Positions 6,092 to 28,808 of a stretch of DNA of 33,471 nucleotides are shown here, piece by piece. This DNA is from Sphingomonadaceae bacterium. GTDB taxonomy: Bacteria; Pseudomonadota; Alphaproteobacteria; Sphingomonadales; Sphingomonadaceae. Position 1 is the first letter of the stretch. Each line of letters opens with the position of its first letter. Made by a program: the position numbers and the translations under genes. The stretch is taken from positions 1 to 33,471 of the forward strand of contig JAHRVR010000169.1 in NCBI GenBank assembly GCA_019090585.1. Direction: 5' to 3'. The notes beneath the pieces are model-generated. The model worked only from the letters and a program-made list of their open reading frames with translations. It ran no database searches and had not been told where the DNA came from.

Positions 6092-6121
6092 ATTCAACAA
6101 GCCTCGTTCTTTTTGTCTCGA

Positions 6122-7273: not shown

Positions 7274-7400
7274 GATGCTCTCCGAATTGGACTCGCTTCA
7301 AGATGCGGTTGAGGCGAGATTTGACGCCGCTCTATTGCGATAATTGCCACTATATGCAAGGGCCAGCGTCGTTCTACGGGCTACGGTGCGGGTGATATGA

Positions 7401-8582: not shown

Positions 8583-8604
8583 GAGTTCGATTCTAAACGG
8601 ACAC

Positions 8605-9792: not shown

Positions 9793-10557
9793 ATGAACGA
9801 TGTCGGCCCTTCCGCCCGGAGCATCTCTGTCGTCGATCGCGCGGCCGATGCTCTGAGAAATCTTTCACTGGCCAGCCAGGATGGCGAATTTCTGGGGTCT
9901 GAAGACGAGATGATCGAGCGGCTCAATGTCAGCCGTGCAACCTTGCGTCAGGCTGCATCGCGTGTTGCGCAGGAGAATCTTGTCACGGTTCGCAGAGGCG
10001 TTGGTGGAGGCTATTTCGCCGGACGCCCCAGCAGTATGAGCGTATCGCGGATGGCCGCGCTATACTTGCGGTCCTACAACGCCGATTTCACCGAGATTGT
10101 CCACGCGATCGGGCCTTTGCGCGCCGAACTGGCGGCGCTCGCATCGCGCAATCGTGATGCGGATATGTTGCAACGACTCGAGGAACTGGCAGTCCGTGAC
10201 GAGACAGCCCCGCTTGAAATGAAGCATGGGTATCGCGCGTTCCTGAAGGGCGATCGGGAGCTGGTGCAACTGATCGGCGAAATGGCCGGAAATTCCGTGC
10301 TTAACTTGCTGATGGCGATCCTGCAGGACTTTGCCGCACAGGCGTCGCGCAGCGAAGACGTCTGGATTGACAGGCCGGAACGCGTGCAGGCCTATCGCAA
10401 GATGCGCGCGAGACTGGCGCGCGCTATTGCCGATGGGGACGAGGAACTGAGCGAGCTTGCCAGCCGGCGCTGTACCGACCTTGTGGCCGATTGGTTTGCA
10501 GAGGATTTCAAGGGACGAACGTTCGATGATCATTCGGTGGGCGAAGGACGGATATAG
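9793..10557 (+). CDS. GntR-family transcriptional regulator (FadR/FCD type)
   Basis: wHTH-like LGSEDEMIERLNVSRATLRQAASRVAQENLVTVRRGVGGGYFAGRP followed by a helical C-terminal domain. Confidence 0.85.
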   Translation: MNDVGPSARSISVVDRAADALRNLSLASQDGEFLGSEDEMIERLNVSRATLRQAASRVAQENLVTVRRGVGGGYFAGRPSSMSVSRMAALYLRSYNADFTEIVHAIGPLRAELAALASRNRDADMLQRLEELAVRDETAPLEMKHGYRAFLKGDRELVQLIGEMAGNSVLNLLMAILQDFAAQASRSEDVWIDRPERVQAYRKMRARLARAIADGDEELSELASRRCTDLVADWFAEDFKGRTFDDHSVGEGRI

Positions 10558-10590
10558 TTCGAGAGACCTGCCACCGGGTGCAAATTGCCA

Positions 10591-10629
10591 TACTGGCCGG
10601 GCTCTCCAGTATCTGGCGGGGCTCTCCAA
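10591..10629. repeat. two-copy imperfect tandem repeat of about 20 bp (TA[T]CTGGC[C/G]GGGCTCTCCA)
   Basis: TACTGGCCGGGCTCTCCAG then TATCTGGCGGGGCTCTCCA; GGGCTCTCCA at 10599-10608 and 10619-10628. Confidence 0.75.
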
Positions 10630-10724
10630 AATGTCGCCGCGCGCGATGGACATCGCTTAACCCGGCAATTAAGGGCATTGAATAGATTTGTCCTGCAAAC
10701 TTAACCTAGAAACGATTGGGATTG

Positions 10725-12245
10725 ATGGCCGAAGCAGCCGAAACATCGTGGCTCGTTCAACAGATTGAGCAGATTTCCGGGATTGAACCGGATTCACCGG
10801 AACTGGAATTTGGTGACCGCTGGTACAGTTGGTCCGAATTGATCGGGGCCAGCGATGCTCTGATTGAGCTTCTGGACGATTCCGGCATCGGGCCAGACAT
10901 GCGCATCGGTATTCTGCTGCGCAATAACGCGCCGATGGTGCCTGCCTTGCTCACCATGTTCCGCAGCGACCGCTGTGTTGCCAGCGTCAATGCATCTGCA
11001 CCTGATGACAAGCTGGCCGTGGATCTGGTCAAGTCAAAGGTGCCGGTGGTTGTCGCGCTGGAAGAGGAATGGGACCGGCCAGGTCTGAAGGATGCGGCCA
11101 GGGAAATTGGTGCGCTTGGCATCGCACTGTCCGCGGATCTCACACAAAAACCCTATCAGATCGAAGGGCTGGAGGCGCAGCGTAGCAAGTGGAATTCGCC
11201 CGAAGCGCCCGGAATCGCGATTGAGATGCTTTCGAGTGGCACTACAGGAACGCCCAAGCGCATTCCGCTGCCGCGCATTCGGTTTGAAAAGGCCATGCAA
11301 GGCGCGGCTTCGTTTGAGAAGGGCCGCGATCCCGATGCCAGGCCCAAGCTGCGCAGCGGTGTGCAGATCGTTACCGCCCCGATTGCCCATATATCGGGCA
11401 TAACCGGGCTCATGAACAACATTCTGGCTGGGAGGAAGATTGCGCTGATCGAGCGTTTCACGGTCAAGGGTTTCGCTGATGCGCTGGTTCGGCACCGGCC
11501 CAAAGTGGCGGGCGCGCCGCCCTCTGCGCTGCGGATGCTGCTTGATGCGGACCTTCCGGCCGATGTCTATAGCAGCCTGAGAGCTTATCGAACCGGGACC
11601 GCACCGCTCGACCCCGATCTCGCCGATGCGTTTTTTGAACGCTATGGCATCCCGGTGCTCCAGAATTACGGCGCGACCGAATTTGCTGGCGGCGTAGCGG
11701 GCTGGACGCTGCAGGACTTCAATGATTTCTGGAAAACCAAGCGCGGCAGTGTCGGGCGCGTCAACAAAGGGGTGGATGCACGCATCGTCGATCCCGAAAG
11801 CGGTGAAGCACTGGCCTTGGGTGAGCAGGGTTTGCTTGAACTGCGCGGCGGGAACAGCGGTTCGCAGGACTGGACGCGCACCACCGATCTGGCTGAGCTA
11901 GACGGCGATAATTTCCTTTATATCCGAGGCCGTTATGATGGCGCGATCATCCGCGGCGGCTTCAAGATTCAGCCCGGCGATGTGATCGCAGCGATTGAAT
12001 CGTATCCCGCGATTCGCGAGGCGGCAGTAGTGGGTCTTCCCGACAGGCGGCTGGGCGAAGTTCCGGTGGCTGGTTACCTGCTCAAGTCCGGGGCGGACAA
12101 TCCCGACGAAGACGTGCTGCGCGCTTTCCTCAAGGAGAAGCTGATGCCCTATCAGGTGCCGGTGCAGATCAAACGATTCGATGAATTTCCGCGCACGCCG
12201 TCGCTGAAGGTGTCCCAGCCTGAGCTCAGGAAGCTGTTCGAGTAA
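10725..12245 (+). CDS. class I adenylate-forming acyl-CoA synthetase
   Basis: MAEAAETSW start; MLSSGTTGTPKRIPL P-loop, QNYGATEFAGG, GRYDGAIIRGGFKIQPGD, C-terminal RTPSLKVSQPELRKLF (Lys retained). Confidence 0.9.
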   Translation: MAEAAETSWLVQQIEQISGIEPDSPELEFGDRWYSWSELIGASDALIELLDDSGIGPDMRIGILLRNNAPMVPALLTMFRSDRCVASVNASAPDDKLAVDLVKSKVPVVVALEEEWDRPGLKDAAREIGALGIALSADLTQKPYQIEGLEAQRSKWNSPEAPGIAIEMLSSGTTGTPKRIPLPRIRFEKAMQGAASFEKGRDPDARPKLRSGVQIVTAPIAHISGITGLMNNILAGRKIALIERFTVKGFADALVRHRPKVAGAPPSALRMLLDADLPADVYSSLRAYRTGTAPLDPDLADAFFERYGIPVLQNYGATEFAGGVAGWTLQDFNDFWKTKRGSVGRVNKGVDARIVDPESGEALALGEQGLLELRGGNSGSQDWTRTTDLAELDGDNFLYIRGRYDGAIIRGGFKIQPGDVIAAIESYPAIREAAVVGLPDRRLGEVPVAGYLLKSGADNPDEDVLRAFLKEKLMPYQVPVQIKRFDEFPRTPSLKVSQPELRKLFE

Positions 12246-12324
12246 AGCCGATTTCAGGGGCCGCCCATGACTGGCTTGGTCCGCCCGACCATGTAAAATC
12301 CAGCCAGCGTTTCAAGGATCAACA

Positions 12325-13536
12325 ATGCGCAGAGTTGCAATCGTCTCTCCCGTCCGCACCGGTGTCGGCAAGTTCCTTGGCAAGCTTTCGGGCATTCCCG
12401 CTGGTGAGCTTGGCGCGATTATCATCCGGGCGTTGATGGAGCGATCCAAAGTGGATCCGGAGCGGATTGACGATGTTGTCTTCTCGCAGGGTTACGGCAA
12501 TGGCGAAGCGCCAGCCATCGGTCGCTGGGCCGCGCTGGCCGCCGGCCTTCCGGTGAGCGTTCCGGGCTATCAGCTCGATCGCCGCTGTGGCTCGGGTGTT
12601 CAGGCGGTGGTCGATGCGGCCATGATGATCCAGACCGGGGCTGCGGATGTCGTGCTTGCTGGCGGCTGCGAGAGTATGAGCCAGGTTGAGCATTATACGA
12701 TCAACGGGCGTTCAGGCGTGAAGGCGGGCTCGATCGAGCTGATGGACCGGCTGGCGCGCGGTCGCCTTATGTCCCAGCCGATTGAGCGCTTTGGCGTCAT
12801 CACCGGCATGATCGAGACAGCGAATAATGTCGCGCGCGATCACGGCATCACGCGTGAGGAGTGCGACGCCTATGCAGCCCGCAGCCAACGCCGTGCGGCC
12901 AAGGCATGGGCCGACGGCAAATTTGAAAAGGAACTCGTTCCCATTGAAGTGCCCCAGCGGCGCGGTGATCCGGTGATTTTTGCAGAAGATGAAGGCGTCC
13001 GCGCGGATACAACGCCTGAATCGCTGGCCAAGCTGCGCGTCATGGAAGAGGGCGGCGTAACCACCGCCGGCAATGCGAGCCAGCAAAGCGATGCCGCCGC
13101 GGCCTGTCTTGTCGTTGCCGAGGACAAGCTTGAGGAACTGGGGCTTGAGCCAATGGCATGGTTCCATAGCTGGGCCGCCGCCGGTTGTGAGCCTTCGCGG
13201 ATGGGTATCGGGCCGGTTCCCGCGTTGGAGCGCCTGTTCGCGCGCACGGGCATGGGCTGGGACGATATTGACCTGGTCGAACTCAATGAGGCGTTTGCAC
13301 CGCAAGTGCTGGGCGTATTGAAGGGCTGGGGATGGAGCGAAGACGATTCGCGAATGGACATGCTCAACGTGAACGGTTCAGGCATTTCGCTTGGCCATCC
13401 AATAGGCGCGACCGGTGGGCGGATTCTGGCTTCGATGCTCTATGAGCTGGAACGCAGGCAGGGCCGCTATGCGCTTGAGACGATGTGTATCGGCGGCGGG
13501 CAGGGTATCGCGGCTATTTTTGAACGCGCGGCCTGA
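12325..13536 (+). CDS. acetyl-CoA acetyltransferase / thiolase
   Basis: 403 aa; LDRRCGSGVQAV nucleophilic Cys, VELNEAFAPQ, NVNGSGISLGHPIGATGGRI, ETMCIGGGQG. Confidence 0.96.
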   Translation: MRRVAIVSPVRTGVGKFLGKLSGIPAGELGAIIIRALMERSKVDPERIDDVVFSQGYGNGEAPAIGRWAALAAGLPVSVPGYQLDRRCGSGVQAVVDAAMMIQTGAADVVLAGGCESMSQVEHYTINGRSGVKAGSIELMDRLARGRLMSQPIERFGVITGMIETANNVARDHGITREECDAYAARSQRRAAKAWADGKFEKELVPIEVPQRRGDPVIFAEDEGVRADTTPESLAKLRVMEEGGVTTAGNASQQSDAAAACLVVAEDKLEELGLEPMAWFHSWAAAGCEPSRMGIGPVPALERLFARTGMGWDDIDLVELNEAFAPQVLGVLKGWGWSEDDSRMDMLNVNGSGISLGHPIGATGGRILASMLYELERRQGRYALETMCIGGGQGIAAIFERAA

Positions 13537-13673: not shown

Positions 13674-15440
13674 TCAGGCCGGGCGGCTGCGGAACAGGCG
13701 GCCTGGACGGGCACCTGTATCGGCATCGTTCCGGCGTGTCGTAACGCCGTTGACCAGGGTTGCGAGATAGCCGGTCGAAGGCTGGTGAAGACGCTGAGCA
13801 CCGCTCGGCAGATCATAGCGCATTTCGGGAATGCCAAGCGATAGACGGTCGTAATCAATGATGTTGAGGTCCGCGCGCTTGCCAACCGCGATCGTTCCGC
13901 GATCCGACATGCCATAGAGATTTGCGGGATCGCCCGTGAGCTTGCGGACCATATATTCAAGCGGAAGCTTTGGCCCGCGGGTGCGGTCACGCGTCCAGAA
14001 GGACAGCTGGAAGGTCGTCAACGAGGCATCGCAGATCAGCTTCACATGAGCGCCGCCATCGCCAAGCCCGCTGATGAGATTGGGGTTGGCGAGCATTTCA
14101 TATGTCTCGTCAAGATTGCCCTCGTTGTAGTTCAGGACAAGGTTGATCGCGGCGTTTGTGCCATCGCCGTCCGTCAGGTGATCGTAAAGGAACTCGATCG
14201 GTGATTTGTTGGTGGCCTTGGCCAGTGCCTCGACCTTCTGGTCGTTCGTGGGTTCGTAATCGACGTGATCGGTGATTAGGTATTTTTCCCCGGCGAATTC
14301 CTGCTGGCGCGCGACCAACCGGACGATGAGCCGATCGGTTCCGGGTGGCGGGGCGTCTTCCTGCGAGAGAATGGCCTCGCGGCGGCCCGTTTCGCGCATG
14401 GCTTCGGCGCGCTTGGCAACCGGCAGGTCGGCGATTTCCATATATGCGGGCTTGAATTTGAAGGGGTGGTGAGACTCCAGCATAATGATCGCGCCAACAC
14501 TGCGCGCGGCGCATTGCGGCTGCATGCGCAGGCCGGGGTCATTTGCCAGGGCCTTGTCGGTCTGTTCGACCATATAGCGGCGGTTCTCTGGCTCGGCCGA
14601 AAATTCAAGAACCGAGAAGGTTGAGGGCCGGCCAGCGGCGCGCGTCAGCCTGACAAGCCGCTCATGCTCGGCAACGCGATTGTTCGTCATGTCGTCCTGA
14701 TCGATGATGTTGCCGATCGCTCCCTTCGGGATCATCTGGAATACGCCGTGGCCTGAACTGCCCATTGCGCTGGCGATGGCGAGCAGTTCGTCATCATTTG
14801 CAAAAGTTCCGGGGACGTGATCGCCTTTGCTTGAAAGGTGCTCAAGCAAGCGACCGCAGGAGAAGCCGACGGCGCCATCGTCCATCGCTTCGCGCGTAAT
14901 GCGGGCCATGGCCTCTATATCTTCTGGCGTGGCTTTCTCGTGGTTGAGCGCGCGTTCACCCATCACAAAGACGCGCAGCGGTGCGTGCGTGATGTGGGAC
15001 GCGACATCCATGGTGAAATTGTTCTGATCAATACGATCAAGGTAATCGCCAAAGCTCTTCCACTTCCAGTCGAGCCCTTCATCGAGTACGATGCCGGGGA
15101 TTTCCTCGACACCCTCCATCATCTCGACCAGCGGACGGCGAAATTCCTCTTCGACAGGGGCAAATCCGACACCGCAGTTACCGGCGATTGCCGTTGTTAC
15201 GCCGTGGGAAAAGCTGGGATCCAGCGTATCGTCCCAGATGAACTGGCCATCATAATGGGTGTGCAAATCGATAAAACCCGGCGTGACGATTGCTCCATCC
15301 GCCTCGATTTCATTGCTTGCGGAACCGGAAACAGCGCCGATCTGTGCGATGACACCATCTTTGATGGCGATATCAGCTGAGTAGCTGTTCTCACCGGTTC
15401 CATCGACAACTTTGCCGCCTCTGATGATGGTATCGAACAT
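13674..15440 (-). CDS. amidohydrolase, N-acyl-D-amino-acid deacylase-like
   Basis: 588 aa; [67 protein letters not shown]. Confidence 0.88.
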
Positions 15441-15558: not shown

Positions 15559-15661
15559 GTAACACGCAAAAACAATCCAGACCGTACTAATTATAGATAA
15601 AGTGGACGCACTGTCCAGCGCTCTGTGCCGGGTGGCGTGTGGCGGAAAGCTCGGTTATGCA

Positions 15662-16312
15662 ATGGGTATGAGTGAATCAGCTGCAATCGTTGAAAGAACC
15701 GCCGAGAATGGGGGGCAGTCGCCAGTGCCTCGCCGCGAACGGACGCGTTTGCGAATTTGTGTGGCTGCCCGCGAGTTGTTCCTGCGTCAGGGCTTTATTA
15801 ATACCACGGTTGAACAGATCGCCAACACGGCTGAACTGCGCCGATCCACCGTTTACAATCATTTTCATGACAAGGAAGAAATCCTTGGCGCGATCGGACA
15901 GGATTACGTGGTCCAGATCGCTCAGGTCATGGCGCGATTGCCGTCCGCTGAACCGACACGCGAGGAAATCGATTCCTGGATCGCGGAGTTTGCGGACTTT
16001 GCGGCCAGCGAGCCGGTTCCAACACTGCTCGTCATCCATTTCAGCCTGAAGCTGGACAGTTTAAGCGTGATGGAAGACTTTTCGGAGCAGGTCATGCAGC
16101 TTTATGCAGACCGGTTGCTGGCTTTCAAAGAAGCCGTCAAACCCGGGAACTACATGGCATGGGCCCGTGCCACCTCTGCGCTTCGCGAACTAAGCTGGGC
16201 ACTGTGTCACCATGTTGAAGATGGCGGCGGCCCGCAATCACAGGCCATGCTTCGGGTTGCTGGTGACATGTTCGAAAATCTGGTGAACGGTAACGGCCCG
16301 CGTCAGTCCTGA
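15662..16312 (+). CDS. TetR-family transcriptional regulator
   Basis: RRERTRLRICVAARELFLRQGFINTTVEQIANTAELRRSTVYNHFHDKEEIL is a typical TetR N-terminal HTH. Confidence 0.93.
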   Translation: MGMSESAAIVERTAENGGQSPVPRRERTRLRICVAARELFLRQGFINTTVEQIANTAELRRSTVYNHFHDKEEILGAIGQDYVVQIAQVMARLPSAEPTREEIDSWIAEFADFAASEPVPTLLVIHFSLKLDSLSVMEDFSEQVMQLYADRLLAFKEAVKPGNYMAWARATSALRELSWALCHHVEDGGGPQSQAMLRVAGDMFENLVNGNGPRQS

Positions 16313-16318: not shown

Positions 16319-17458
16319 TCAACGCAAGCTGGTAAATGCTTTTCGTAGCTCTGAGACGAACAGTTCCGGCTGTTCGAATGCTGCGAAGTGCCCACCATTT
16401 TCCAACTCGCCCCAATGAATGATGTTTTCAAAGCTGCTTGCCGCCCAGCGCCGTGAGCCACGCACAATCTCTTTGGGAAAATCGCTGTAAGCCAGAGGCA
16501 CATCGGTTTTGCCGCGCGGCCACTTTTGCAGGCTTTCCCAATAGAGTCGGGCCGATGACGCGCCTGTCCCGGTGAGCCAGTAGACCATGATATTATCGAG
16601 CACATGGTCGAGCGAGAAACAATCGGCAGGGCTGCCATTGCAATCGGTCCAGCCTTTGAATTTCTCGTAGATCCACATGGCCTGTCCGACAGGCGAATCC
16701 ACCAGCGAATAGCCAAGCGTTTGTGGCTTGGTGCTCTGCTCCTCTGAATAGCCGCGCTCCTGCGCTGACCAGAGCTTCATTTGCTCGAGGATGGCCTTTT
16801 CCTCGTCTGTGGGGTTTTCCAGCTGCTCCGGCGCAGGGCCGGCGACGAGCATGTTGAGATGAATCGCGGCAAGGCCGCCGGGTTTTTGCAGGGCCATCGC
16901 GGAGGTGACCGCCGAACCCCAGTCTCCGCCTTGTGCGACATAGCGATCATAGCCCAGCCCGCGCATGAGGGTGTCCCATGCCTGCGCTGTGCGCTGCACT
17001 GTCCACCCGGTTTGCGCGGGCCTTGAGGAAAATCCATATCCGGGCAGCGATGGGATGACGAGGTGGAATGCCTGTGATGCAGTGCCGCCGTGCGCGCTCG
17101 GGTTGGTCAATGGCTCGATCACATTGAGGAATTCGATCACCGAGCCGGGCCAACCGTGCGTCATGATCATCGGAAGCGCATCATCGTGCGGTGAGCGGAT
17201 ATGCAGGAAATGGATGTCTAGCCCGTCAATTTCGGCATGGAACTGATCGTAGCTGTTCAGATGTGCCTCGCAACGCCGCCAGTCATAGCTATTGCGCCAA
17301 TAGTCGACCACGCGTTTGGCTTCGGCCAGCGGCACGCCCTGCTGCCAGCCATCGACGGTTTCCTTTTCCGGCCAACGCACAAGATCAAGGCGGGCATTGA
17401 GATCGTCGAGCGCATCTTGCGAAATCTCGACGGCAAAAGGCCGGGGTTCGAATGCCAT
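16319..17458 (-). CDS. epoxide hydrolase (EHN domain, alpha/beta hydrolase fold)
   Basis: MAFEPRPFAVEISQ start; THGWPGSVIEFL, AQGGDWGSAVT (Asp nucleophile), ENGGHFAAFEQPELF. Confidence 0.93.
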   Translation of the reverse strand: MAFEPRPFAVEISQDALDDLNARLDLVRWPEKETVDGWQQGVPLAEAKRVVDYWRNSYDWRRCEAHLNSYDQFHAEIDGLDIHFLHIRSPHDDALPMIMTHGWPGSVIEFLNVIEPLTNPSAHGGTASQAFHLVIPSLPGYGFSSRPAQTGWTVQRTAQAWDTLMRGLGYDRYVAQGGDWGSAVTSAMALQKPGGLAAIHLNMLVAGPAPEQLENPTDEEKAILEQMKLWSAQERGYSEEQSTKPQTLGYSLVDSPVGQAMWIYEKFKGWTDCNGSPADCFSLDHVLDNIMVYWLTGTGASSARLYWESLQKWPRGKTDVPLAYSDFPKEIVRGSRRWAASSFENIIHWGELENGGHFAAFEQPELFVSELRKAFTSLR

Positions 17459-17567
17459 GGAGGACTCCGTTGAGCTGTTGCAATTATTCAGCGCAGGTCT
17501 GGTTTCTGGCGCATGTCTGGGAACGCCCAGATCCGTCGCGGGGTTTCCTGCGCGTCCTGCGCGTCTC

Positions 17568-17598
17568 AAACACTGCCATGGAAGACATCGCAGTGTTT
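17568..17598. promoter_or_regulatory. inverted repeat AAACACTG-N15-CAGTGTTT upstream of the epoxide hydrolase
   Basis: Perfect 8-bp arms with 15-bp spacer in the 191-bp gap between P450 stop and epoxide hydrolase start. Confidence 0.5.
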
Positions 17599-17649
17599 AA
17601 AACGAAGCAGCGTCAACGTGATATTGTGCGCGGGTTCTCCCTAATATCG

Positions 17650-18873
17650 TTAGGCGGGATCCCATACCAGCGGGAGGTGTTCGATGTTGAGAACGCTTCC
17701 GCCGCGCATGGGAACGTCCTTACCTGGCTCAATGCGGAAAGCTGGTATGCGCTTCATCACTTCTTCCAGCATGACAACGATCTCGATGCGGGCAAGGTGC
17801 CGTCCGACGCAGCGATGGTCGCCCGCGCCGAAAGCGATGTGGTTGATCCGCTCGCGGTCGATATCGACTTTGTCGGCATGGTCGAACATCCGCTCATCAA
17901 GGTTTGCCGCCGGGTAATTGAGCAGCACCATGTCTCCCGCACGAACATTGTAGCCGTGCCAGTTTTCGTCCTTCATGGTCTTGCGGATGACGGGCGCCAC
18001 GGCATGGCGGCGCATCAGCTCTTCCATCGCATGCGGTATCTTGTCCGGCTCCTCACGCAAACGCTGCTGCAAGGTTTGGTCCATCGCCAGATAGCGCATG
18101 CAAAATGCCATGGCGTTGGCCACGGTATCGAGCCCGGCGAAGAACAGCAGTTTGCAATAGCCCAACACGAGGTCCTCGCTGACCGGCTCGCCATTAATTT
18201 CCAGTTCGAGAAGGTAGGAAATCAGGTCATCTTCCGGCTTCGCAGTCCGCGCTATGATCACTTCGCGCAGTAAACGGAGCGCCTCATCAATTGAACTGTA
18301 GCGGACATCAAGGTCTCGTTCGCCAACGGCTGCTTTGGCCAGGTCGCGATATGTTCTAAAGTCTGCCTTGTTCAATCCCATGATGTCGATGAAGATCAGT
18401 ACCGGGAGCTTCTCGGTGACAGCTGTGAAAAAGTCCGCCTTGCCCAGTGGCGCGATTTCATCGATCAGTTCCACTGCCAGTTCGCGGATCTGACCGACAC
18501 GCTTATACATCTGGGTGGCGGTGAAGACCTTGGTAAGCGGCGCCCTGAACGCAGCATGATCCGGTGGATCGATCTGCAAGGGAATACTGGGGTGCGGTTC
18601 CGGAAGTTCGTGGCGGGGCGGGATTCGCATATAGCTGCTGCTGAACAGATCGGTCCGCTTGGCGGCATCGATGATCACATCATATCCCTGGATAACCCAA
18701 TAGCCGCCCAGGGCCGTGCTCCAGAAGACATCCGGCGCTTCGACGCGTAGTTCGGCCATGGCTTCGGGTATACCGCCCGCCGAAGTGTAGCGCGGGTCGG
18801 AATAGTAATCGAAATCGAGCACCAGCGCGGGATCAATGCCCGATGGTGGCGCTGTGGTCGTAATGGTTTCCAT
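17650..18873 (-). CDS. cytochrome P450, CYP101 (P450cam)-like
   Basis: FGAGDHRCVGRHLARIEIVV heme-Cys loop, FFAGLDTVANAM I-helix, EELMRR (ExxR), C-terminal HLPLVWDPA as in P450cam. Confidence 0.94.
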   Translation of the reverse strand: METITTTAPPSGIDPALVLDFDYYSDPRYTSAGGIPEAMAELRVEAPDVFWSTALGGYWVIQGYDVIIDAAKRTDLFSSSYMRIPPRHELPEPHPSIPLQIDPPDHAAFRAPLTKVFTATQMYKRVGQIRELAVELIDEIAPLGKADFFTAVTEKLPVLIFIDIMGLNKADFRTYRDLAKAAVGERDLDVRYSSIDEALRLLREVIIARTAKPEDDLISYLLELEINGEPVSEDLVLGYCKLLFFAGLDTVANAMAFCMRYLAMDQTLQQRLREEPDKIPHAMEELMRRHAVAPVIRKTMKDENWHGYNVRAGDMVLLNYPAANLDERMFDHADKVDIDRERINHIAFGAGDHRCVGRHLARIEIVVMLEEVMKRIPAFRIEPGKDVPMRGGSVLNIEHLPLVWDPA

Positions 18874-18904
18874 CTCGTCCTCTCCCGGAATTGTGGTTTG
18901 CCAG

Positions 18905-19990
18905 TCAGTTGTCGAAGACGATCACACTTCTGGCAACGTCACCGGCTATCATGTTGTCATAGCCATCATTGATATCTTCAAGCTTGATTCGCTGTGAGAC
19001 CAGCTCGTCCAGCTTAAGTTTGCCGTTCAGATAGAGCTGCGCATAATTGGGGATCGCCTGCTGGAAGGGCGCGGACCCCATCAGTGATCCGCGAACTTCC
19101 AATTCCATTGCCATGACCATGACGCCAGGGACCGAGAAGCTCGATCCGGAAGGGGCCATGCCGACAACCGTAAAGACGCCGCGGCGGCGCAGCATCATCA
19201 GCGCCTGTTCCTGCGTGGAGGGAAGGCCGATCACTTCGAAAGAATAGTCCGCACCGCCGCCCGTCATTTCCCTGACTTCGGCGACGGCGTCCGGCCCGCC
19301 CTTGACGCAATCCGTCGCGCCGAAAGTGCGGGCAAGATCGAACTTGCGCTCATTAAGGTCCACAGCGATGATACGCGCGGCACCGGCCAGCCGGGCGCCC
19401 TGGATGACGTTGAGGCCGACGCCGCCACAGCCGATCACCACGACGGTGCTACCCGGGGAAACAGCCCCGCGGTTGAGCGCTGCGCCAACGCCGGTCAGCA
19501 CGGCGCAACCCAGCAGGGCCGCACGGTCAAGCGGCATACCTTCGGGGATCTTGGTAAGGCCGGTGCGGTGGATCAGCATTTCCTCGGCAAATCCGCCCAA
19601 CCCGGCAAATTGGCTGATGGCCTCCTTGCCCCGCGTGATACGGGAAGGCAGGTCTTCCGCCCGCGATTTTGGGTTGTTGCCACAGACGTTGTTGTGTCCG
19701 GTCTGACAATCGCGGCAATGGCCGCAATACATGGATGTGCAGCTGACGACTTCATCGCCGGGCTTGAATTCGCTGACATCGGAACCAACCGCTTCGACGA
19801 CGCCTGCTGCCTCATGGCCCAGCACCGCGGGCATGGGAGTGAGGAGATCGCCCGAAATCGAGTGATAGTCTGAATGACATAGCCCGCTGCCGACGACGCG
19901 AATGCGCACTTCGTCGGGGCGCGGGGCGTCGAGTTCGACGTCCTCGATTGTAAGCGGCTGCTGGATCTCGCGAAGTACGGCGGCTTTCAT
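18905..19990 (-). CDS. zinc-dependent alcohol dehydrogenase (MDR)
   Basis: GLCHSDYHSISG, LGHEAAGVVEAVG, structural zinc Cys cluster CGHCRDCQTGHNNVC, GCGGVGLNVIQGARLAGA. Confidence 0.96.
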   Translation of the reverse strand: MKAAVLREIQQPLTIEDVELDAPRPDEVRIRVVGSGLCHSDYHSISGDLLTPMPAVLGHEAAGVVEAVGSDVSEFKPGDEVVSCTSMYCGHCRDCQTGHNNVCGNNPKSRAEDLPSRITRGKEAISQFAGLGGFAEEMLIHRTGLTKIPEGMPLDRAALLGCAVLTGVGAALNRGAVSPGSTVVVIGCGGVGLNVIQGARLAGAARIIAVDLNERKFDLARTFGATDCVKGGPDAVAEVREMTGGGADYSFEVIGLPSTQEQALMMLRRRGVFTVVGMAPSGSSFSVPGVMVMAMELEVRGSLMGSAPFQQAIPNYAQLYLNGKLKLDELVSQRIKLEDINDGYDNMIAGDVARSVIVFDN

Positions 19991-20061
19991 GTTCTCTCCC
20001 GATTATAGTTGTTTTGTTCTATTGATTAATGCGCGTTGGAGCTGTCGTCTATAATTTGTTC

Positions 20062-20997
20062 TTATGCCTGAACCAGTTGCCTTCCGATCCACGCGACGGT
20101 TGCATTCACGGCACCAAGCGCGGGCTCGGCAAATTCGGTCATCGAGTAATAACCGTGAAACATGCCTTCATCGATGCGCAGTTCAACCGGAACGCCATCT
20201 CGTTCCAGCAGCTTGGCATAAGCGATATTGTCATCGCACAGGACATCACAATCGCCCGTGGTGATGAAGGCCGGGGCAAGGCCTGATGCGTCTTTGAGCT
20301 TTAACGGCTTGGCAAGCGGCGATGAATTCTCGCCATCGCCAGAAAGATAATGGCCCCAGAAATACTCCATGTCCGCGCCAGTCAGCATCCATCCCTTATC
20401 GCCGACTTCGCGATAGGATGCGGTGGTGAAATCTGTGTCGAACGCGCCATAGACAATGATCTGACCCGCCAGATCAGGCCCGCCTTCGTCGCGCGCGCGA
20501 ATGGCAATTGCAGCGCACAGGTTCCCGCCAGCACTGTCTCCGGCGATGAAATACGGCCCTTTGAGATTAGCCGCAGCCCATCGCAGCCCTGTGAAGCAAT
20601 CGTCGAGCGGTTGGGGAAAGGGGTGTTCGGGCGAAAGCCGGTAATCAACGCTGATGACGTCAAGGCCAGCCCAGCCCGCCCAGCGGCGGCACATGCTGTC
20701 GCCCGTATCGAGGTCGCCCAGGACCCAACCGCCGCCGTGGAAATAGACAATCGTGCCCTTGGTTGCGCCGAGCGGCTTGAAATGGCGAATGGGGATCGGG
20801 CCGTGCGGTCCACTTATGGTTGAGTCGATAACTTCAGCAAGCTCGGGCAGGTCTGTTGGCTCCGGGGCTGCCGCAAGGATATTCGTCATGAGCGCTCGTG
20901 CACCTTCGGGCGGAAGCGAGGCAAATTCTGGAATTCCAGCTTCCTTGCGCTTCTCGAAAAGAATTGCGCCGTAAGGGTGGGGTTCTCTCATTGTCAT
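20062..20997 (-). CDS. alpha/beta hydrolase, hormone-sensitive-lipase family
   Basis: VYFHGGGWVLGD, VDYRLSPEHPFP, AGDSAGGNLCAA. Confidence 0.95.
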   Translation of the reverse strand: MTMREPHPYGAILFEKRKEAGIPEFASLPPEGARALMTNILAAAPEPTDLPELAEVIDSTISGPHGPIPIRHFKPLGATKGTIVYFHGGGWVLGDLDTGDSMCRRWAGWAGLDVISVDYRLSPEHPFPQPLDDCFTGLRWAAANLKGPYFIAGDSAGGNLCAAIAIRARDEGGPDLAGQIIVYGAFDTDFTTASYREVGDKGWMLTGADMEYFWGHYLSGDGENSSPLAKPLKLKDASGLAPAFITTGDCDVLCDDNIAYAKLLERDGVPVELRIDEGMFHGYYSMTEFAEPALGAVNATVAWIGRQLVQA

Positions 20998-21977
20998 TGC
21001 TGCGCCTGCTCCATCTGTTCGGTTGCCTTGGCAGCCGACCCTGCACCTTTATCCAGCTGTCCGGGAGGAGCACCAATGGGGGCGTCTTCCTTTGCTCCGG
21101 ACAGGCGCGATTGTCCCATGATCGCCGGATAGGGATTGACGCCGGTGGCGCGGCCCGTCCCGATTGCCTGGCAACGCGCCTTCATGGCATCGCTGTCATG
21201 ATTGGGCAGGATATAGAGCTCGCCTGCTTCTGCGGCGTCGAAAACTATCCTGGCCAGTTCTTCGGGCGGCATGGCCTTCTCGAGATTGCCGGTCATCAAC
21301 TGCTCGACCCGCTTTACGGTTGCATTCTCGTGCCGGGCTTCGCGGTCAAGATCCAGTGCAGAGGGGCTGGCCTTTTCCGGCTCCATGATCTCGGTGCGGA
21401 TCATGCCTGGCATGGCAATGGTCACGCCTATGTTGCCAACCTTTTCGGCCACCAGATCAATGTAAAGCGCCTCGGTCAGGGCCAGCGCCGCATGTTTTGT
21501 TGGCGAATAAGTCGCATAGCCTGGATAGACCGCGATGCCGGCGCCCGATGCAATGGTCACGACGTGGCACGGATCGCCTTGCGCGATCATTCGAGGCACG
21601 AAGGCACGGATTCCGTGGGCGACGCTCTTGAAGTTCAGCTCGACAATCCAGTCCATCTGTGCGGCGCTGGTTTCCCAGGCAAGTCCGCCGACGAAGGCAC
21701 CGGCATTGTTGAACAGCATGTTGACTTGTCCGAAGCGATCCACCGCTGCTTTGGCAAGATTCTCGACATCGGCCTCGCTCGTGACGTCCGCGCGCATGGC
21801 CAGAACTTCGCCGCCCATGGCGGTCAGACTTTCCTGCGCTTGCCTGAGCTTGTCCTCGCGGATGTCGGAGATGACGACGCGCATTCCCCTGCGCACGGCT
21901 TCTGTTGCCAAGCCAAGGCCGATGCCGCCCGCCGCGCCCGTGACGATCGCGACGGCGCCCTTCTGAATTGCACTCAT
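20994..21977 (-). CDS. SDR-family oxidoreductase
   Basis: MSAIQKGAVAIVTGAAGGIGLGLATEAVRRG, FNNAGAFVGG, YSPTKHAALAL; 4-bp overlaps with both neighbouring CDSs. Confidence 0.95.
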   Translation of the reverse strand: MSAIQKGAVAIVTGAAGGIGLGLATEAVRRGMRVVISDIREDKLRQAQESLTAMGGEVLAMRADVTSEADVENLAKAAVDRFGQVNMLFNNAGAFVGGLAWETSAAQMDWIVELNFKSVAHGIRAFVPRMIAQGDPCHVVTIASGAGIAVYPGYATYSPTKHAALALTEALYIDLVAEKVGNIGVTIAMPGMIRTEIMEPEKASPSALDLDREARHENATVKRVEQLMTGNLEKAMPPEELARIVFDAAEAGELYILPNHDSDAMKARCQAIGTGRATGVNPYPAIMGQSRLSGAKEDAPIGAPPGQLDKGAGSAAKATEQMEQAQQ

Positions 21978-23644
21978 GCTTCTGCTCCGACTTTGCTTTT
22001 GCTCAGGGAAAAGCCCGCATAGCCATTGGCTGCAATGTGATCGCAGCGCGCGATATAATTGTCGAACCCACCAATATAGGCCAGGAACATGCTGGGTTTG
22101 CCCGGAACGTTCGCGCCCATGTACCAACTGTTTGCTTTGGGAAATAACGTCTGGTTGGCAACCGTTCGCGTGTGTTCCGCCCAGTCTGCCGCTGCGGACT
22201 CGTCTGTCTCGATGATGTTGATACCCTGCTGGTTCATGGCGTTGATACAGTCGGCGATCCAATCGACATGCTGTTCCAGCGTAAGGATCATGTTGGCCAG
22301 AACAGACGGGCTGGACGGGCCGTTGACCGTGAACAGGTTGGGGAAGCCCGGTATAGCCAGACCAAGATAGCTTATCGGGCCGTCTGCCCATGCCTCACTG
22401 AGGGAAACGCCGCCTCGCCCTTCAATGCCAAGATTGACGATTGGGCCTGTCACCGCATCGAAGCCGATGGCAAAGACGATCAGATCGACCGGATATTCCC
22501 CGGCGCTTGTCTGAATACCAGTTGCGGTGATCCGCTCAATCGGTTCGGTCTTGATGTCGACGAGTTCAACCGTGTCGCGATTGAATGTCGCAAAATAATC
22601 GGTGTCCAGGCACAGGCGCTTGGTTCCAAACGGATAGCCTTTGGGGATCAGTTTCTCGGCTACATTTGGATCGTTCACCGTTTCGCGAATTTTTGCGTGC
22701 ACGAAGTTTGCCGCAATATCATTGGCATTCTGATTTAGCGTGGTATCGCGAAAGCAGCTCTGAAGGTTCCATCGGCCCAGCTTCCAGGCATGTTCCATCC
22801 GATCGTTGCGTTCAGCCTCGGTGAAGTCAGCTGCCGTCCGGTCGGTGCTCAGTTCAAATATCTGGCCCGAGCGCGACCGTTTCAATTTATCGAGGTAAGC
22901 GGGGTAGTCTTCGAAGACCTCTTTGCGGCGCTCCTCCGGCAAGGGGCCGTTATATGCCGGCACGCTGTAGTTGGCAGTGCGCTGAAAAACCGTAAGCTGC
23001 TTTGCGGTCTTGGCAATTTCGGGGATCGACTGGATCGCCGAGGAGCCGGTGCCGATGACAGCAACGTTCTTGCCGTCCCAGTTGACATTTTCCTTGGGCC
23101 ATGCGCCGGTCTGAATCCACTGTCCCTTGAAGTCTTCCAAACCCTTGAAATCCGGATCCTTGGGCACGGAGAGGCAGCCCACCGTGGTGACAAGGTATTT
23201 GCAGGAAATACTCTCGCCCTTGTCGGTTTCCACAGTCCAGCGATTGCGGCCTTCGTCATATCTCGCCGCGGTGATCTTCGACTGGAATTTGATGTCGCGC
23301 TTCAGGTCGAACTTTTCTGCGACAAAGTTGGCATAGCGCAGGATTTCGTCCTGCCTGGCGAAACGCTCGGTCCATTGCCACTCATCCAGCAGTTCCCGAG
23401 AGAATGTATAGCAGTAATCGACACTCTCAACATCGCAGCGCGCGCCGGGGTATCGGTTCCAATACCATGTGCCGCCGACATCGGTGCCCTGTTCGAAGCC
23501 GAAAACACTCATGCCAAGTTGGCGAAAGCGGTGATGCGCGTACATTCCGCCGAAGCCCGCACCGATTACGACGATGTCCGCTTCAGCCGGCACAGCTGTC
23601 GTTCCAACGACCGTTGCCAAATCCTGCACTTCAGACAAGATCAT
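21974..23644 (-). CDS. flavoprotein monooxygenase, Baeyer-Villiger type
   Basis: VIGAGFGGMYAHHRFRQLG, GGTWYWNRYPGARCDVES, VIGTGSSAIQSIPEIA, fingerprint-like FKGQWIQTGAWP. Alternative start at 23662. Confidence 0.93.
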   Translation of the reverse strand: MILSEVQDLATVVGTTAVPAEADIVVIGAGFGGMYAHHRFRQLGMSVFGFEQGTDVGGTWYWNRYPGARCDVESVDYCYTFSRELLDEWQWTERFARQDEILRYANFVAEKFDLKRDIKFQSKITAARYDEGRNRWTVETDKGESISCKYLVTTVGCLSVPKDPDFKGLEDFKGQWIQTGAWPKENVNWDGKNVAVIGTGSSAIQSIPEIAKTAKQLTVFQRTANYSVPAYNGPLPEERRKEVFEDYPAYLDKLKRSRSGQIFELSTDRTAADFTEAERNDRMEHAWKLGRWNLQSCFRDTTLNQNANDIAANFVHAKIRETVNDPNVAEKLIPKGYPFGTKRLCLDTDYFATFNRDTVELVDIKTEPIERITATGIQTSAGEYPVDLIVFAIGFDAVTGPIVNLGIEGRGGVSLSEAWADGPISYLGLAIPGFPNLFTVNGPSSPSVLANMILTLEQHVDWIADCINAMNQQGINIIETDESAAADWAEHTRTVANQTLFPKANSWYMGANVPGKPSMFLAYIGGFDNYIARCDHIAANGYAGFSLSKSKVGAEA

Positions 23645-23864
23645 TATCTCCTCAAATTGCATTCATTGGAATTTGTGCTGGAAATAGCGCACATCACAAT
23701 GGATACATCTGGACGTGATGTCCATATATATGCGACGGCTGACGTCTCGAGGCTATCGGACTAAGTTATAGTATTTTGAAAAATAACAATAAATTCGACA
23801 ATCTCGCATTTGGATATCGTCTTGCATCTGTCGTGGCTGAACCGGATATACGAGGATCGGTGGT

Positions 23865-23980: not shown

Positions 23981-24385
23981 GTGGCCCTGCTGAAATTCAT
24001 CGATCATGTCGCGATTACAGTTGCCGATGTGGAGCGATCGACAAAATTCTACACTGCGCTGTTTGGCGCAGAGCTTCTGTTCGATCATGCGCCAAATGGA
24101 CGTTGTCTGGTCCGGTCTGTGCAGATCGGGGGCGGGGTGCAGCTTAACATCCACCAGGAAGGCAACGGGATGGACCTCGTGGCGGCCCGGCCGACACCCG
24201 GCTCGGCCGATATATGCTTCCGGTTTGGCGGGTCGATTGATGAGGCTGAGGACTTGCTGCGCAGCCATGACATCGAAATTATCGAAGGGCCGTCTGCGCG
24301 GACGGACAATCAGGGCGGCGCCGCCCAATCGGTCTATTTCCTCGATCCGGACGGCAATCTGCTGGAACTGATGGCGTCGGATTGA
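23981..24385 (+). CDS. VOC-family (glyoxalase/bleomycin resistance) protein
   Basis: GTG start; LKFIDHVAITVADVERSTKFYTALFGAEL ... SVYFLDPDGNLLELM. Confidence 0.9.
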   Translation: MALLKFIDHVAITVADVERSTKFYTALFGAELLFDHAPNGRCLVRSVQIGGGVQLNIHQEGNGMDLVAARPTPGSADICFRFGGSIDEAEDLLRSHDIEIIEGPSARTDNQGGAAQSVYFLDPDGNLLELMASD

Positions 24386-24412: not shown

Positions 24413-25555
24413 ATGCAGGACGACACGACCAAGAGCGGCGCCATAGCGCGCGCGGCAATCGCGAAATCGACGCGTTCGCGATTTTTTGGGGATTTCACAG
24501 CGGCGAGGAAAGTACTGCGAAGCAGCAGCGTCGTTCAGGGCGGTGTTGGTATCCAGACCTTGAGGGATGTCGATGAGGACGATGTCACCATGTTCTATCT
24601 GGATGGCAAAGCGCACCAGAAGCGCCGCGCGGCAATTGCGCCTTTCTTTACGCTCAAGACGATCACGGAAAAATATGAGCCGGTGATGCATCGCTGTGCG
24701 GACACGTTGATATCCCGGCTGGCGCAGACCGGAGCCGCGGACTTGGGCGAACTGGCCTTTTACTATGCGGTTGTCGTGGCAGCTGATGTGATCGGACTGG
24801 ATTATTCCGACATTGACTGGCTGGCGCGGCAGATCGGCTCGATCATCGACGAAGACGGCGGTAAACGCCCGACCAAGGATTTCGATGACCCGGACCTGCT
24901 GGCATTTTTTGATGATGTTGTGCAGCCGGCGATTGATCGGCGCCGCAAGGAGCCGACCGAAGATATAATCTCGACCATGATCGCCAATGGCCACAAAGAC
25001 CGCTTTATCCGCACAGAAGTGCGCGGCTATGCGATTGCGGGCATGGCTACAACGCGTGAATTTATCAGCATGGCGGCGTGGTATTTGTTTGAACAGCCCA
25101 ACTTGATGGAGCGTTTCAGGACTGGCAGCGATAAAGACCAGTTTGCCATTCTGGACGAGGTTATTCGGCTTGAGCCGGTTTCCGGGGTAATCAAGCGCGA
25201 GGCCTCCGAGCCCATGGAAGTTGCGGAACTTGGCCCGGTTGCACAAGGCGATATTCTTGGCATCGACATTCGAAAGGCCAATCTGAGCGAGGATGTCGTC
25301 GGCGAATGTCCTTATGCCTTTAACCCGGACAGGGAAAATCGCATACCTGCCAAGAGCGGTTACATGAGCTTTGGTGATGGTCCGCATCGTTGCCCCGGTG
25401 CCATGCTCTCCATACACGAAACGCGCATTTTTCTGGACAAGCTGGCGAGGCTGCCTGAATTGAAGTTGGTATCCGAACCGCAGCTGAGCTGGTTCCGGCC
25501 GATTACCAGCTATGAGATAAAGAACATGTTGGTGACTTGCGAAAAGGTTGGCTGA
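24413..25555 (+). CDS. cytochrome P450 with non-canonical I-helix
   Basis: MSFGDGPHRCPGAMLSIHETRIFL heme loop; DEVIRLEPV (ExxR); I-helix AGMATTREFI. Confidence 0.93.
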   Translation: MQDDTTKSGAIARAAIAKSTRSRFFGDFTAARKVLRSSSVVQGGVGIQTLRDVDEDDVTMFYLDGKAHQKRRAAIAPFFTLKTITEKYEPVMHRCADTLISRLAQTGAADLGELAFYYAVVVAADVIGLDYSDIDWLARQIGSIIDEDGGKRPTKDFDDPDLLAFFDDVVQPAIDRRRKEPTEDIISTMIANGHKDRFIRTEVRGYAIAGMATTREFISMAAWYLFEQPNLMERFRTGSDKDQFAILDEVIRLEPVSGVIKREASEPMEVAELGPVAQGDILGIDIRKANLSEDVVGECPYAFNPDRENRIPAKSGYMSFGDGPHRCPGAMLSIHETRIFLDKLARLPELKLVSEPQLSWFRPITSYEIKNMLVTCEKVG

Positions 25556-25600: not shown

Positions 25601-27082
25601 ATGTCGCAAGATCCAGCCCGCATTCCGGTCATTATTGGCGTTGGGGAGATCAACGACAGGCCGGATGATCCGATGGACGGCCTCGATTCGGTTGAGCTGA
25701 TGGCGGCCTCTGCAAAGAAGGCGGACGTGGATGCTGGCGGCGGCTGGATCGAACAGTGCGACTGGTTGACCAATGTCGCGCAGATGTCGTTTCGTACATT
25801 TGACGTGGAAGCGATGCTTCCAAAGGCGCTGGGGATCAAGCCGGCAACAGTGGTCGAGGCGAAAGGCTCTTATGGCGATCACCCGGTCATGCTGGTCAAC
25901 GATGCTGCCAATGCAATTGCATCGGGCAAAGCCTCGGTCTGCATCGTTACTGGCGGCGAAGGGCTGCGCACGGCGGCAAAGCGGCCAAAGAAAGACGGCG
26001 GCGGTGAAGACCTGTTCAGAAAGTCACGCACGAGCGCTTCAGACGTGCGGCAGCGTTATGGCATGATCGAGCCGGCACAAATCTACCCGCTTTATGAAAA
26101 CGCGACCCGCGCGGCATGGGGACTGAGTCTGGCACAGGCGCAGGCGGAAACGGGCAAGATCTGGTCGACGATGTCGCAGGTCGCCAATGACGCCGAAGGC
26201 GCCTGGATCAAACAGCCGCGCACGCCGGAGGAAATTACAACATTCGATGCGAACAACCGGCCCTTGGCATTCCCATATTCAAAGTTCCAGGTTGCCAATT
26301 CGTCTGTGAATCAGGGCGCATCACTGATCATCACCAGTCTGGCCAAAGCGCGGGCGGCTGGGATTGACGAGGGCCGGATTATTTACATCGGCGCAGGCGC
26401 GAATGCCCATGAGGATGAAGAACCGCTCAATCGCGTGAACTGGACCGGAACTGTGGCGATGGAAGTGGCCTTGGAAAAGACCATGGAGTTGAACGGGCTC
26501 GCTGCGAATGACCTCGATCACGTTGAGCTCTACTCGTGCTTTCCGTGCGTTCCCAAGATGGCGCGGCGCATTCTTGGCCTGTCCGCTGACCGGCCACTGA
26601 GCGTTCAGGGCGGGCTGACGTTTGGGGGCGGCCCGATGGGCAATTACATGATGCATGCGAGCGCGGGGATGGTCCGCAAGCTGCGTGAAAGCGGTGAATA
26701 CGGCCTGCTTTACGGCAATGGCGGCCATTGCACACATAACCACGCCATCGTCCTGTCAACGCATCCGGTCAAGGGTGTGAGCTTTCCGCAGGACTATGAT
26801 TTCCATGAAGAGGCCGATGCGCGGCGCGGAGCCATCCCTGAAAGCGACCAGACTTATGAGGGCCCGGCCACTATCGAGACATATACGGTCTTTCATTCAC
26901 GCGCGGGTGACCCCACCAGCGGCGTGATCTTTGCACTGACACCGCAAGGGACGCGGGTTGTCTCGAAAGTAGAAGGTGAGGATTTGGATATGATGGCGTT
27001 CCTCACCGATGGCACGGTCGAGCCGGTCGGCACTTCCGGGCGCACCGAGCGCGTTGGCGAAACCCTGTTCTGGAGGCGATAG
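25601..27082 (+). CDS. thiolase-like protein (TLP1-like) with extra C-terminal domain
   Basis: 493 aa; thiolase-fold features (PVIIGVGEIN, VNDAANAIASGKASVCIVTGGEG, DLDHVELYSCFPC, GGLTFGGGPMGNYMMHA) plus about 80-aa C-terminal extension; no Cys at the nucleophile position. Confidence 0.85.
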   Translation: MSQDPARIPVIIGVGEINDRPDDPMDGLDSVELMAASAKKADVDAGGGWIEQCDWLTNVAQMSFRTFDVEAMLPKALGIKPATVVEAKGSYGDHPVMLVNDAANAIASGKASVCIVTGGEGLRTAAKRPKKDGGGEDLFRKSRTSASDVRQRYGMIEPAQIYPLYENATRAAWGLSLAQAQAETGKIWSTMSQVANDAEGAWIKQPRTPEEITTFDANNRPLAFPYSKFQVANSSVNQGASLIITSLAKARAAGIDEGRIIYIGAGANAHEDEEPLNRVNWTGTVAMEVALEKTMELNGLAANDLDHVELYSCFPCVPKMARRILGLSADRPLSVQGGLTFGGGPMGNYMMHASAGMVRKLRESGEYGLLYGNGGHCTHNHAIVLSTHPVKGVSFPQDYDFHEEADARRGAIPESDQTYEGPATIETYTVFHSRAGDPTSGVIFALTPQGTRVVSKVEGEDLDMMAFLTDGTVEPVGTSGRTERVGETLFWRR

Positions 27083-27206
27083 GCCGGCGGAGTGCCGGTG
27101 CGCGGCAGGGATATTGAATGCCATCATAGCGGACTTGCAGGGGTTTTTCAGGCGGTTCAGACAGCACTTATGAAAAACACAAGACTTGCAGCCGGGCGCA
27201 TATCAT

Positions 27207-28808
27207 ATGTTTGATGGAACACCCGATAGCGCGACGGGGCTGGCGCATATATCCGCTGACACGTCATTTCCGCTCCTCGATATGACGATCGGAGATTGCC
27301 TGCGCGACAAGGCGGAGCGGTTTGGAGACCGTTCCGCCCTGATATGGCGCATGGATGGGGAGCTTCAGCGCTTTAGCTACAGCGAATTGCTGGCCCAGGC
27401 AGAGCTCGTGGCAAGCTGGCTGCTTGAGCGGGCCAGCCCGGGTGAGCGCGTTGCGATCTGGTCGCGCAATTCTGCCGAATGGGTCGTCACTGAATTTGCC
27501 TGTGCGCTTGCCGGGCTGGTTGTGGCGGGCTGGAACCCGGCTTGGTCGGAACGCGAATGTGAACATGCACGCGATCTTATCGATCCGGCGGTGCTCTTGA
27601 GCGGATACGATACGCGCGGTGTCTCTTTGATGGACCGTGCCGCGCATCTCATGCCGTCTGGGAAGGTCTTTGCCCTTGAGGAACTGTTCGATCTTGTAAG
27701 AGGCAGCAAGCCGGTGGAACTGCCGCAGGTTGATCCATCAGACTTGTTCATGATCCAGTTCACTTCCGGCACGACGGGGCGTTCCAAGGGCGCGTCTCTC
27801 TCTCATTTCGCGGCGCTCAATGCCAGTTATCTGCGAGCGGTGTCGGCTGGATTTGACGAGACCGATATCTGGGTCAATGCCGGGCCGCTCAACCATGTGG
27901 GCGGTGCGCTCAGCGTTGTGCTTGGCTGTGTATCGGTTGGCTCTTGTTATGTGTTGATGCAAAGGTTTGAAACGGGCGAATATCTGCGCATGATGCGCGA
28001 AACCGGCGCCACCCGGATCGGCGGCGTGCCGACCATGTTGATCGCGCTGTGTGAACATCCCGAATGGGACCCCTCGCAATTCAATATCAGGTCGATCGGA
28101 TCGGGCGGCGCGTCGGTGCCCAAGCCGTTGATTGAGCGGCTGAACCGGGAATTTGGCGCGCCGGTTGTGGTTGTGTTCGGTCAGTCCGAAAGCGTGATGA
28201 TCACGACCTCTGTCCCGCAAGATGCGCCAGAGATCGCTGCGAAAACTTCTGGCCGCGCTGCGCCGCATGTTGACCTGAAGATATGTCATCCCGAAACCGG
28301 CAAAACGCTCAAGGTTGGTGATGTGGGGGAAGTCTGCGCTCGCAGCCCGATGAATATGGACGGCTATTTCCGGATGCCCGAAGCCACGGCCACGACCATC
28401 GACAAAGACGGGTATATCCATACCGGCGACCTCGGTTCGCTCGATGCCCAAGGATACCTCAGTATTCAGGGGCGTACGCGCGAAGTCATCATCCGGGGCG
28501 GCGAGAACATCTATCCAGCTGAGATCGAGGGGTTTCTGCTTGAGCACCCGGACATTGTGTCACTCGCGGTTGTCCCCATTGCCGACGAAAAATGGGGGCA
28601 GACCGTGGCGGCAGCGATCAAGCTGCGCGATGGTTGCGCGCTGGATGCGCAGGAGCTGGAAGCTTTCGCTGCCAAAGGCCTCGCCCATTTCAAGATTCCG
28701 CGCACCTGGCTTGCGGTTGAAGCGTTCCCGATGACGGCTTCAGGAAAGATCAGGAAAGTGGACGTTGAAAAGCTGTTCGAGAGAAATTCAGCGGCCCCGC
28801 CAGTCTGA
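27207..28808 (+). CDS. acyl-CoA synthetase (AMP-forming)
   Basis: IQFTSGTTGRSKGASLSH, GRTREVIIRGGENIYPAEIEGFL, PMTASGKIRKVDVEKLF. Confidence 0.95.
   Translation: MFDGTPDSATGLAHISADTSFPLLDMTIGDCLRDKAERFGDRSALIWRMDGELQRFSYSELLAQAELVASWLLERASPGERVAIWSRNSAEWVVTEFACALAGLVVAGWNPAWSERECEHARDLIDPAVLLSGYDTRGVSLMDRAAHLMPSGKVFALEELFDLVRGSKPVELPQVDPSDLFMIQFTSGTTGRSKGASLSHFAALNASYLRAVSAGFDETDIWVNAGPLNHVGGALSVVLGCVSVGSCYVLMQRFETGEYLRMMRETGATRIGGVPTMLIALCEHPEWDPSQFNIRSIGSGGASVPKPLIERLNREFGAPVVVVFGQSESVMITTSVPQDAPEIAAKTSGRAAPHVDLKICHPETGKTLKVGDVGEVCARSPMNMDGYFRMPEATATTIDKDGYIHTGDLGSLDAQGYLSIQGRTREVIIRGGENIYPAEIEGFLLEHPDIVSLAVVPIADEKWGQTVAAAIKLRDGCALDAQELEAFAAKGLAHFKIPRTWLAVEAFPMTASGKIRKVDVEKLFERNSAAPPV

Follow-up and report, generated by a model that had tools for sequence, protein, structure and literature searches.

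Do the six oxidative genes lying side by side in this sphingomonad contig form a catabolic unit, and is camphor the right model for it? The window, as we call the whole stretch of DNA analysed, comprises 33,471 nucleotides (positions 1 to 33,471 of contig JAHRVR010000169.1, here C150) of a Sphingomonadaceae bacterium (GCA_019090585.1), whose genome is a draft metagenome-assembled genome (MAG) of 249 contigs, 92% complete. Read along the minus strand from 23662 to 16319, the block encodes a Baeyer-Villiger monooxygenase (BVMO), a short-chain dehydrogenase (SDR), an HSL-type esterase, a zinc alcohol dehydrogenase (ADH), a cytochrome P450 and an epoxide hydrolase (EH), which the original prediction, made from the sequence alone, had described as a camphor-like operon. 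We find that the block is real, more than a chance grouping, and part of a conserved, uncharacterised island of about 30 kb. It is probably the upper, oxygenase half of that island, which would serve the catabolism of a hydrophobic cyclic or branched compound, and neither the name camphor-like nor the limit of six genes should be kept.

Conservation of the block

A genus-wide search with the ADH found a 78-81% identical enzyme in four of 196 genomes (G712, G648, G690 and G725), and these same-genus genomes are the ones that carry the cluster. At E<=1e-55, the SDR was found in 7 of 399 genomes of the family, the window's own included. In G648 and G725, about 20 genes follow the order of the window over nearly all its length (69-30671). 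The order of the block is kept over 15.6 kb in G712, and G690 has its core, the three genes for P450, ADH and hydrolase, on a contig of 3 kb; both of these loci end at contig ends. The flanking genes, which the original prediction had taken to supply CoA activation and beta-oxidation, are linked to the block by the collinearity in G648 and G725. Identities between window and relatives range from 66 to 93%, and dN/dS values in G712, G648 and G725 lie between 0.04 and 0.26, with dS near saturation. Selection on the block in these three genomes is strongly purifying. The genes for beta-oxidation are in general more conserved than those for the oxygenases. Because gene order is kept in same-genus genomes and dN/dS is low, chance clustering does not account for the block.

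The relatives also show that the unit is larger than the block. Their BVMO arm reads BVMO-SDR-Amidohydrolase2-hydrolase-ADH-P450 (two to three copies)-PF10118-EH-Amidohydrolase-thiolase-FadD1-GntR, and the arm divergent from it reads AtuA-FadD2-EH2-PF10118-TLP-VOC. The PF10118 assignments were checked against Pfam for two G648 genes and made by sequence resemblance in G725 and G712, and in G712 no separate hydrolase match was listed between Amidohydrolase2 and the ADH. In G648 and G725 the island runs on through SDR2, CaiB, acyl-CoA dehydrogenase (ACAD), 3-hydroxyacyl-CoA dehydrogenase (HAD), CaiB and ACAD genes. The relatives have an amidohydrolase gene inserted between SDR and hydrolase, further P450s and, separating P450 from EH, a PF10118 gene; the boundary of six genes drawn by the original prediction does not hold. 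The AtuA gene of G648 (L119, 5268-7442) is split over two reading frames, by either a sequencing error or a real frameshift.

Outside the four carriers, G157 (L046) has the order ADH-Amidohydrolase-SDR-BVMO-TetR-EH and G643 (L102) has BVMO-ALDH-ADH, together with TLP and AtuA genes. G712 holds in addition a paralogous ADH-BVMO-P450 group (L105, on G712:C172), in which the ADH is 58% and the BVMO 44% identical to those of the window. This type of ADH is thus repeatedly paired with this type of BVMO, which supports a step shared by the two enzymes. A family-wide BVMO search returned many relatives, mostly without the neighbour genes. That the locus is instead a loose cluster of broad-specificity oxidoreductases, acting on unrelated substrates or in xenobiotic detoxification, is improbable: the MAG is indeed rich in such enzymes, with three BVMO matches besides that of the block and 19 PF00067 matches (some being fragments of a single gene), and the gene set varies between relatives, but some 20 genes stay collinear at low dN/dS in G648 and G725 and the linkage of ADH and BVMO recurs.

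Other candidates were set aside. Apart from the one in G157, the SDR relatives belong to a different cluster type. A plasmid search with the BVMO, SDR, EH and P450 gave no close plasmid-borne relative, all best matches being below 60% identity, and the plasmid neighbourhoods H17 and H32 proved to be different clusters. A conserved operator was considered in the region between the BVMO and VOC genes; the relatives are alike there, the window differs, and no clear common site emerged.

Gene calls and layout

Genes were called from the open reading frame listing with Pfam and NCBIfam scans, and the nearest structures were taken from matches in the PDB. All six genes stand on one strand and belong to the classes originally given to them. 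The description of three genes joined by 4-bp overlaps is right in that BVMO, SDR and hydrolase are chained, the overlaps being two in number; hydrolase and ADH are 71 bp apart, ADH and P450 31 bp, and P450 and EH 191 bp. The most likely start codon of the EH is the ATG at 17458, a better choice than the TTG at 17569. By reading, the signatures of the SDR (TGAAGGIG, YSPTK), the hydrolase (HGGGW, GDSAGG) and the P450 (AGLDT, EELMRR, FGAGDHRCVG) are intact, as is the Cys/His/Cys zinc set of the ADH, and the EH has both the EHN domain and the alpha/beta hydrolase core that define EHN-type epoxide hydrolases. When the block was scanned for promoters and terminators, the results fell inside the range given by shuffles, and an Rfam search gave no match. 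From the spacing and conservation of the genes we infer that the block is co-transcribed.

The BVMO and its fingerprint

The nearest solved structures of the BVMO are phenylacetone monooxygenase (PAMO, 612 bits) and steroid monooxygenase (STMO, 569 bits), followed by CHMO types at 460 bits or less and OTEMO at 453; identity to PAMO is 49.4% over 536 positions. The first fingerprint, GGTWYWNRYPGARCD, is intact and matches the type I consensus [A/G]GxWxxxx[F/Y]P[G/M]xxxD. The flanking GxGxxG/GxGxxA Rossmann motifs are present, the pair KR stands at R337 of PAMO, and the catalytic Arg is kept. The second fingerprint, FKGQWIQTGAWP, departs from the consensus FxGxxxHxxxW[P/D] by having Gln in place of the central His. 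This Gln is found in all six cluster orthologues (window, L099, L100, L101, L046 and L102), and among the other PAMO-like relatives retrieved, mostly from sphingomonads, 21 of 36 are without the His, with Arg, Gln, Leu, Met, Lys, Tyr or Ala instead.

A published curation treats the His motif as a BVMO hallmark (PMC4498894). Mutating the His impairs or inactivates CHMO and HAPMO, yet BVMOAf1 of Aspergillus fumigatus naturally has the same Gln and is active (PMC3762062), so loss of the His is not in itself evidence of lost activity. On its sequence, the window enzyme is best called BVMO-like. A His-based motif, as used for curation, would overlook this enzyme and its non-His relatives.

The P450s and the camphor question

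The best PDB matches of the block P450 are all P450cam, then CYP101D, with 36.8% identity to P450cam. Naming within a CYP family calls for at least 40% identity to its members, and we use the term CYP101-like. His94 aligns at Tyr96 of P450cam. According to PMC9655578, Tyr96 contacts the camphor carbonyl, and CYP101B1 and CYP101C1, which have no equivalent of it, oxidise ionones. Two or three tandem CYP101-like P450s are seen in the relatives (L100, 11405-15491; L099, 12771-15288; L101, 7687-10229) where the window has one; these copies are also without the Tyr, with other residues in its place, and differ at the substrate-facing B/C-loop site. The second, highly divergent P450 of the window (best PDB match 71 bits) is without a counterpart at that place in the relatives. 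It lies outside the conserved unit.

Opening of the camphor ring proceeds first through FMN-dependent two-component diketocamphane monooxygenases (DKCMOs) and then through OTEMO (PMC6027186). A true camphor or OTEMO-type route, acting on a bicyclic monoterpene as in Pseudomonas putida, is disfavoured and very unlikely here. The structural matches of the P450 speak for it, as does the P450-ADH-BVMO logic, in which alone the camphor-like label holds; kinship of the enzymes does not support it, given the low identity to P450cam with His for Tyr96 and a BVMO that is PAMO-like with no OTEMO orthologue in the window. Moreover, a luciferase-type DKCMO (PF00296) is found neither among the window genes nor on C150 (15 matches lie elsewhere in the genome), and no putidaredoxin or its reductase is clustered with the block.

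Proposed pathway

Our best reading is an aerobic, uncharacterised pathway that ends in beta-oxidation plus cleavage by AtuA, with a substrate that would be a cyclic or branched ketone or hydrocarbon of plant type, most likely terpenoid- or norisoprenoid-like; the caution of the original prediction about the substrate is upheld. The CYP101-like P450 would hydroxylate an unactivated position, using a ferredoxin and reductase encoded at other loci of the genome, and the ADH and/or the SDR would oxidise the alcohol to a ketone, beside whose carbonyl the PAMO-type BVMO would put an oxygen. The HSL-type esterase, possibly with the amidohydrolase, may open the resulting ester or lactone, and the EH may remove an epoxide made by a P450 or carried by the substrate. 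FadD and CaiB enzymes would activate the acid, the ACAD/HAD/thiolase set would shorten the chain, and AtuA, in which both domains of its family (PF07287 and ferredoxin-like) are found, might break a C-C bond at a tertiary alcohol, at branch points that beta-oxidation cannot pass. In favour of this reading are the ionone oxidation by CYP101B1 and CYP101C1 and a recent report that the AtuA-like ThnQ/S split a tertiary-hydroxy acyl-CoA (PMC12016498).

The series of hydroxylation, ketone formation, oxygen insertion and hydrolysis proposed originally is thus plausible for this gene set, apart from lactone formation: PAMO/STMO-type BVMOs also use acyclic methyl ketones, so a lactone product is not established. 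Perhaps, in place of ring opening, the BVMO turns R-CO-CH3 into an acetate ester from which the HSL esterase frees acetate and an alcohol for the ADH or SDR, while the P450 and EH work on the ring of the molecule, which would be a norisoprenoid or like a C21 steroid. We consider this possible but doubtful. It agrees with the bit scores of the BVMO, with an HSL-type gene adjoining a BVMO of the PAMO-like group in Thermocatellispora (L039), and with the ionone oxidation by P450 relatives without Tyr96; PAMO-like BVMOs, however, are promiscuous and their clade does not fix the substrate, the Amidohydro_3 enzyme inserted in the relatives' operon suggests a second hydrolysis, and the large CoA set fits ring opening equally well.

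Several observations weigh against the island pathway that we prefer. No P450 ferredoxin or reductase is present in the window, PF00111 matches being on other contigs only. In the stretch of G157 that was read, BVMO, SDR, ADH and EH genes occur with neither a P450 nor an HSL gene, and the set can therefore exist without the P450 step. The next SDR relatives in other genomes (51-56% identical) adjoin thiolase-like, ACAD and FadD genes, not a BVMO, and the SDR may therefore act at the CoA stage. The structure prediction for AtuA (pLDDT 46) is too low for use, and the activity of ThnQ/S is cited as unpublished results in a review (PMC12016498).

With low confidence, diversified tandem CYP101-like P450s might feed one Gln-fingerprint BVMO, with an AtuA-type lyase, not a carboxylase route, breaking the branch-point C-C bond in an undescribed aerobic terpenoid or norisoprenoid pathway. 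Should the island pathway that we prefer hold, the breakdown of branched alicyclic compounds by sphingomonads, of which little is known, would gain a pathway whose genes are defined and testable. It would also give PAMO-like BVMOs a physiological setting; PMC4498894 calls the physiological substrates of BVMOs widely unknown. In the island one could also test whether AtuA-family proteins serve aerobic pathways as C-C lyases, and its BVMOs are natural examples that lack a fingerprint His supposed to be essential.

Flanking genes and the window genome

The features of the window are collected in Table 1.

Table 1. Genes of the block and its surroundings, with positions in the window
Feature	Position	Strand	Remark
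BVMO, type I, PAMO/STMO-like	21974..23662	-	Pfam/NCBIfam scans and motifs
SDR	20994..21977	-	4-bp overlap with BVMO
Alpha/beta hydrolase, Abhydrolase_3, HSL type; probable esterase/lactonase	20062..20997	-	4-bp overlap with SDR
Zn-ADH (zinc MDR alcohol dehydrogenase)	18905..19990	-	about 80% identical in cluster-bearing relatives
Cytochrome P450, CYP101-like	17650..18873	-	His94 replaces Tyr96
EH	16319..17458	-	EHN and alpha/beta hydrolase domains
Amidohydro_3 amidohydrolase	13674..15440	-	adjoins EH in G648 and G725
TetR regulator	15602..16312	+	missing between amidohydrolase and EH in G648/G725
VOC (glyoxalase-fold) protein	23981..24385	+	first gene of divergent arm
Second P450, highly divergent	24413..25555	+	between VOC and TLP genes
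Thiolase-like protein (TLP), TLP1 C-terminal domain	25601..27082	+	domain scans
Acyl-CoA ligase FadD2	27186..28808	+	domain scan, collinearity in relatives
AtuA-family protein, candidate C-C lyase	28851..30671	-	PF07287 409 bits, AtuA ferredoxin-like domain 91 bits
GntR/FCD regulator, acyl-CoA ligase FadD1, thiolase	9793..13536	+	collinear in G725 and G648
ACADs, two family III CoA-transferases, HAD, SDR	69..9456		collinear, 69-93% identical in G725 and G648

Relative to the other carriers, the window locus is without the Amidohydrolase2, EH2, additional P450 and PF10118 genes, and has the TetR gene and the divergent P450 in addition. PF10118 has no match in the whole MAG; since the genome is a draft, absences beyond this locus are provisional. 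In L100, genes of this family (predicted metal-dependent hydrolases) adjoin epoxide hydrolases at 1991-2920 and 15495-16391. Other contigs of the MAG hold amidohydrolase paralogues of up to 48% identity and an EH paralogue of 52%. Among these loci (L127-L129, on contigs C46, C159 and C188 of the window genome, G000), C46 has two adjacent Amidohydro_3 paralogues and a third at the contig end, and C159 has an EH gene paired with an amidohydrolase gene and, farther on, a P450. These groups suggest related clusters in the same genome.

Comparison with known systems

Within the set of papers searched, no cluster of such composition is described. The cam pathway of Pseudomonas putida (CYP101A1, 5-exo-hydroxycamphor dehydrogenase, DKCMOs and OTEMO) is alike in its succession of P450, ADH and BVMO and in passing a branched alicyclic product to CoA-dependent steps. 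In contrast to it, the window has a distant P450 without Tyr96 and a single type I PAMO-like BVMO in place of the FMN-dependent DKCMOs and OTEMO, adds an HSL esterase, an EH and an amidohydrolase, and has no redox partners in the cluster. The atu pathway for acyclic terpenes shares the AtuA-family protein, and no geranyl-CoA carboxylase domains are found in the window genes scanned. The thn operon of anaerobic naphthalene degraders likewise has an AtuA-like lyase, a CoA-transferase, an amidohydrolase, ACADs and thiolases (PMC12016498), but it is anaerobic, begins with naphthoyl-CoA reduction and has no P450 or BVMO.

Among single enzymes, the ionone oxidisers CYP101B1, CYP101C1 and CYP101D5 of sphingomonads are also of the CYP101 type, the first two again without the Tyr96 equivalent, and the literature consulted does not place them in a cluster of this kind. 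PAMO of Thermobifida fusca and STMO of Rhodococcus share with the window BVMO the Rossmann and first fingerprint motifs and the catalytic Arg, whereas the window enzyme has Gln for the fingerprint His and sits in a P450/ADH catabolic island. BVMOAf1 has the same natural change of the fingerprint His to Gln, although it comes from a fungus, shares 42% identity with PAMO, bears an extra fused domain and stands in another context.

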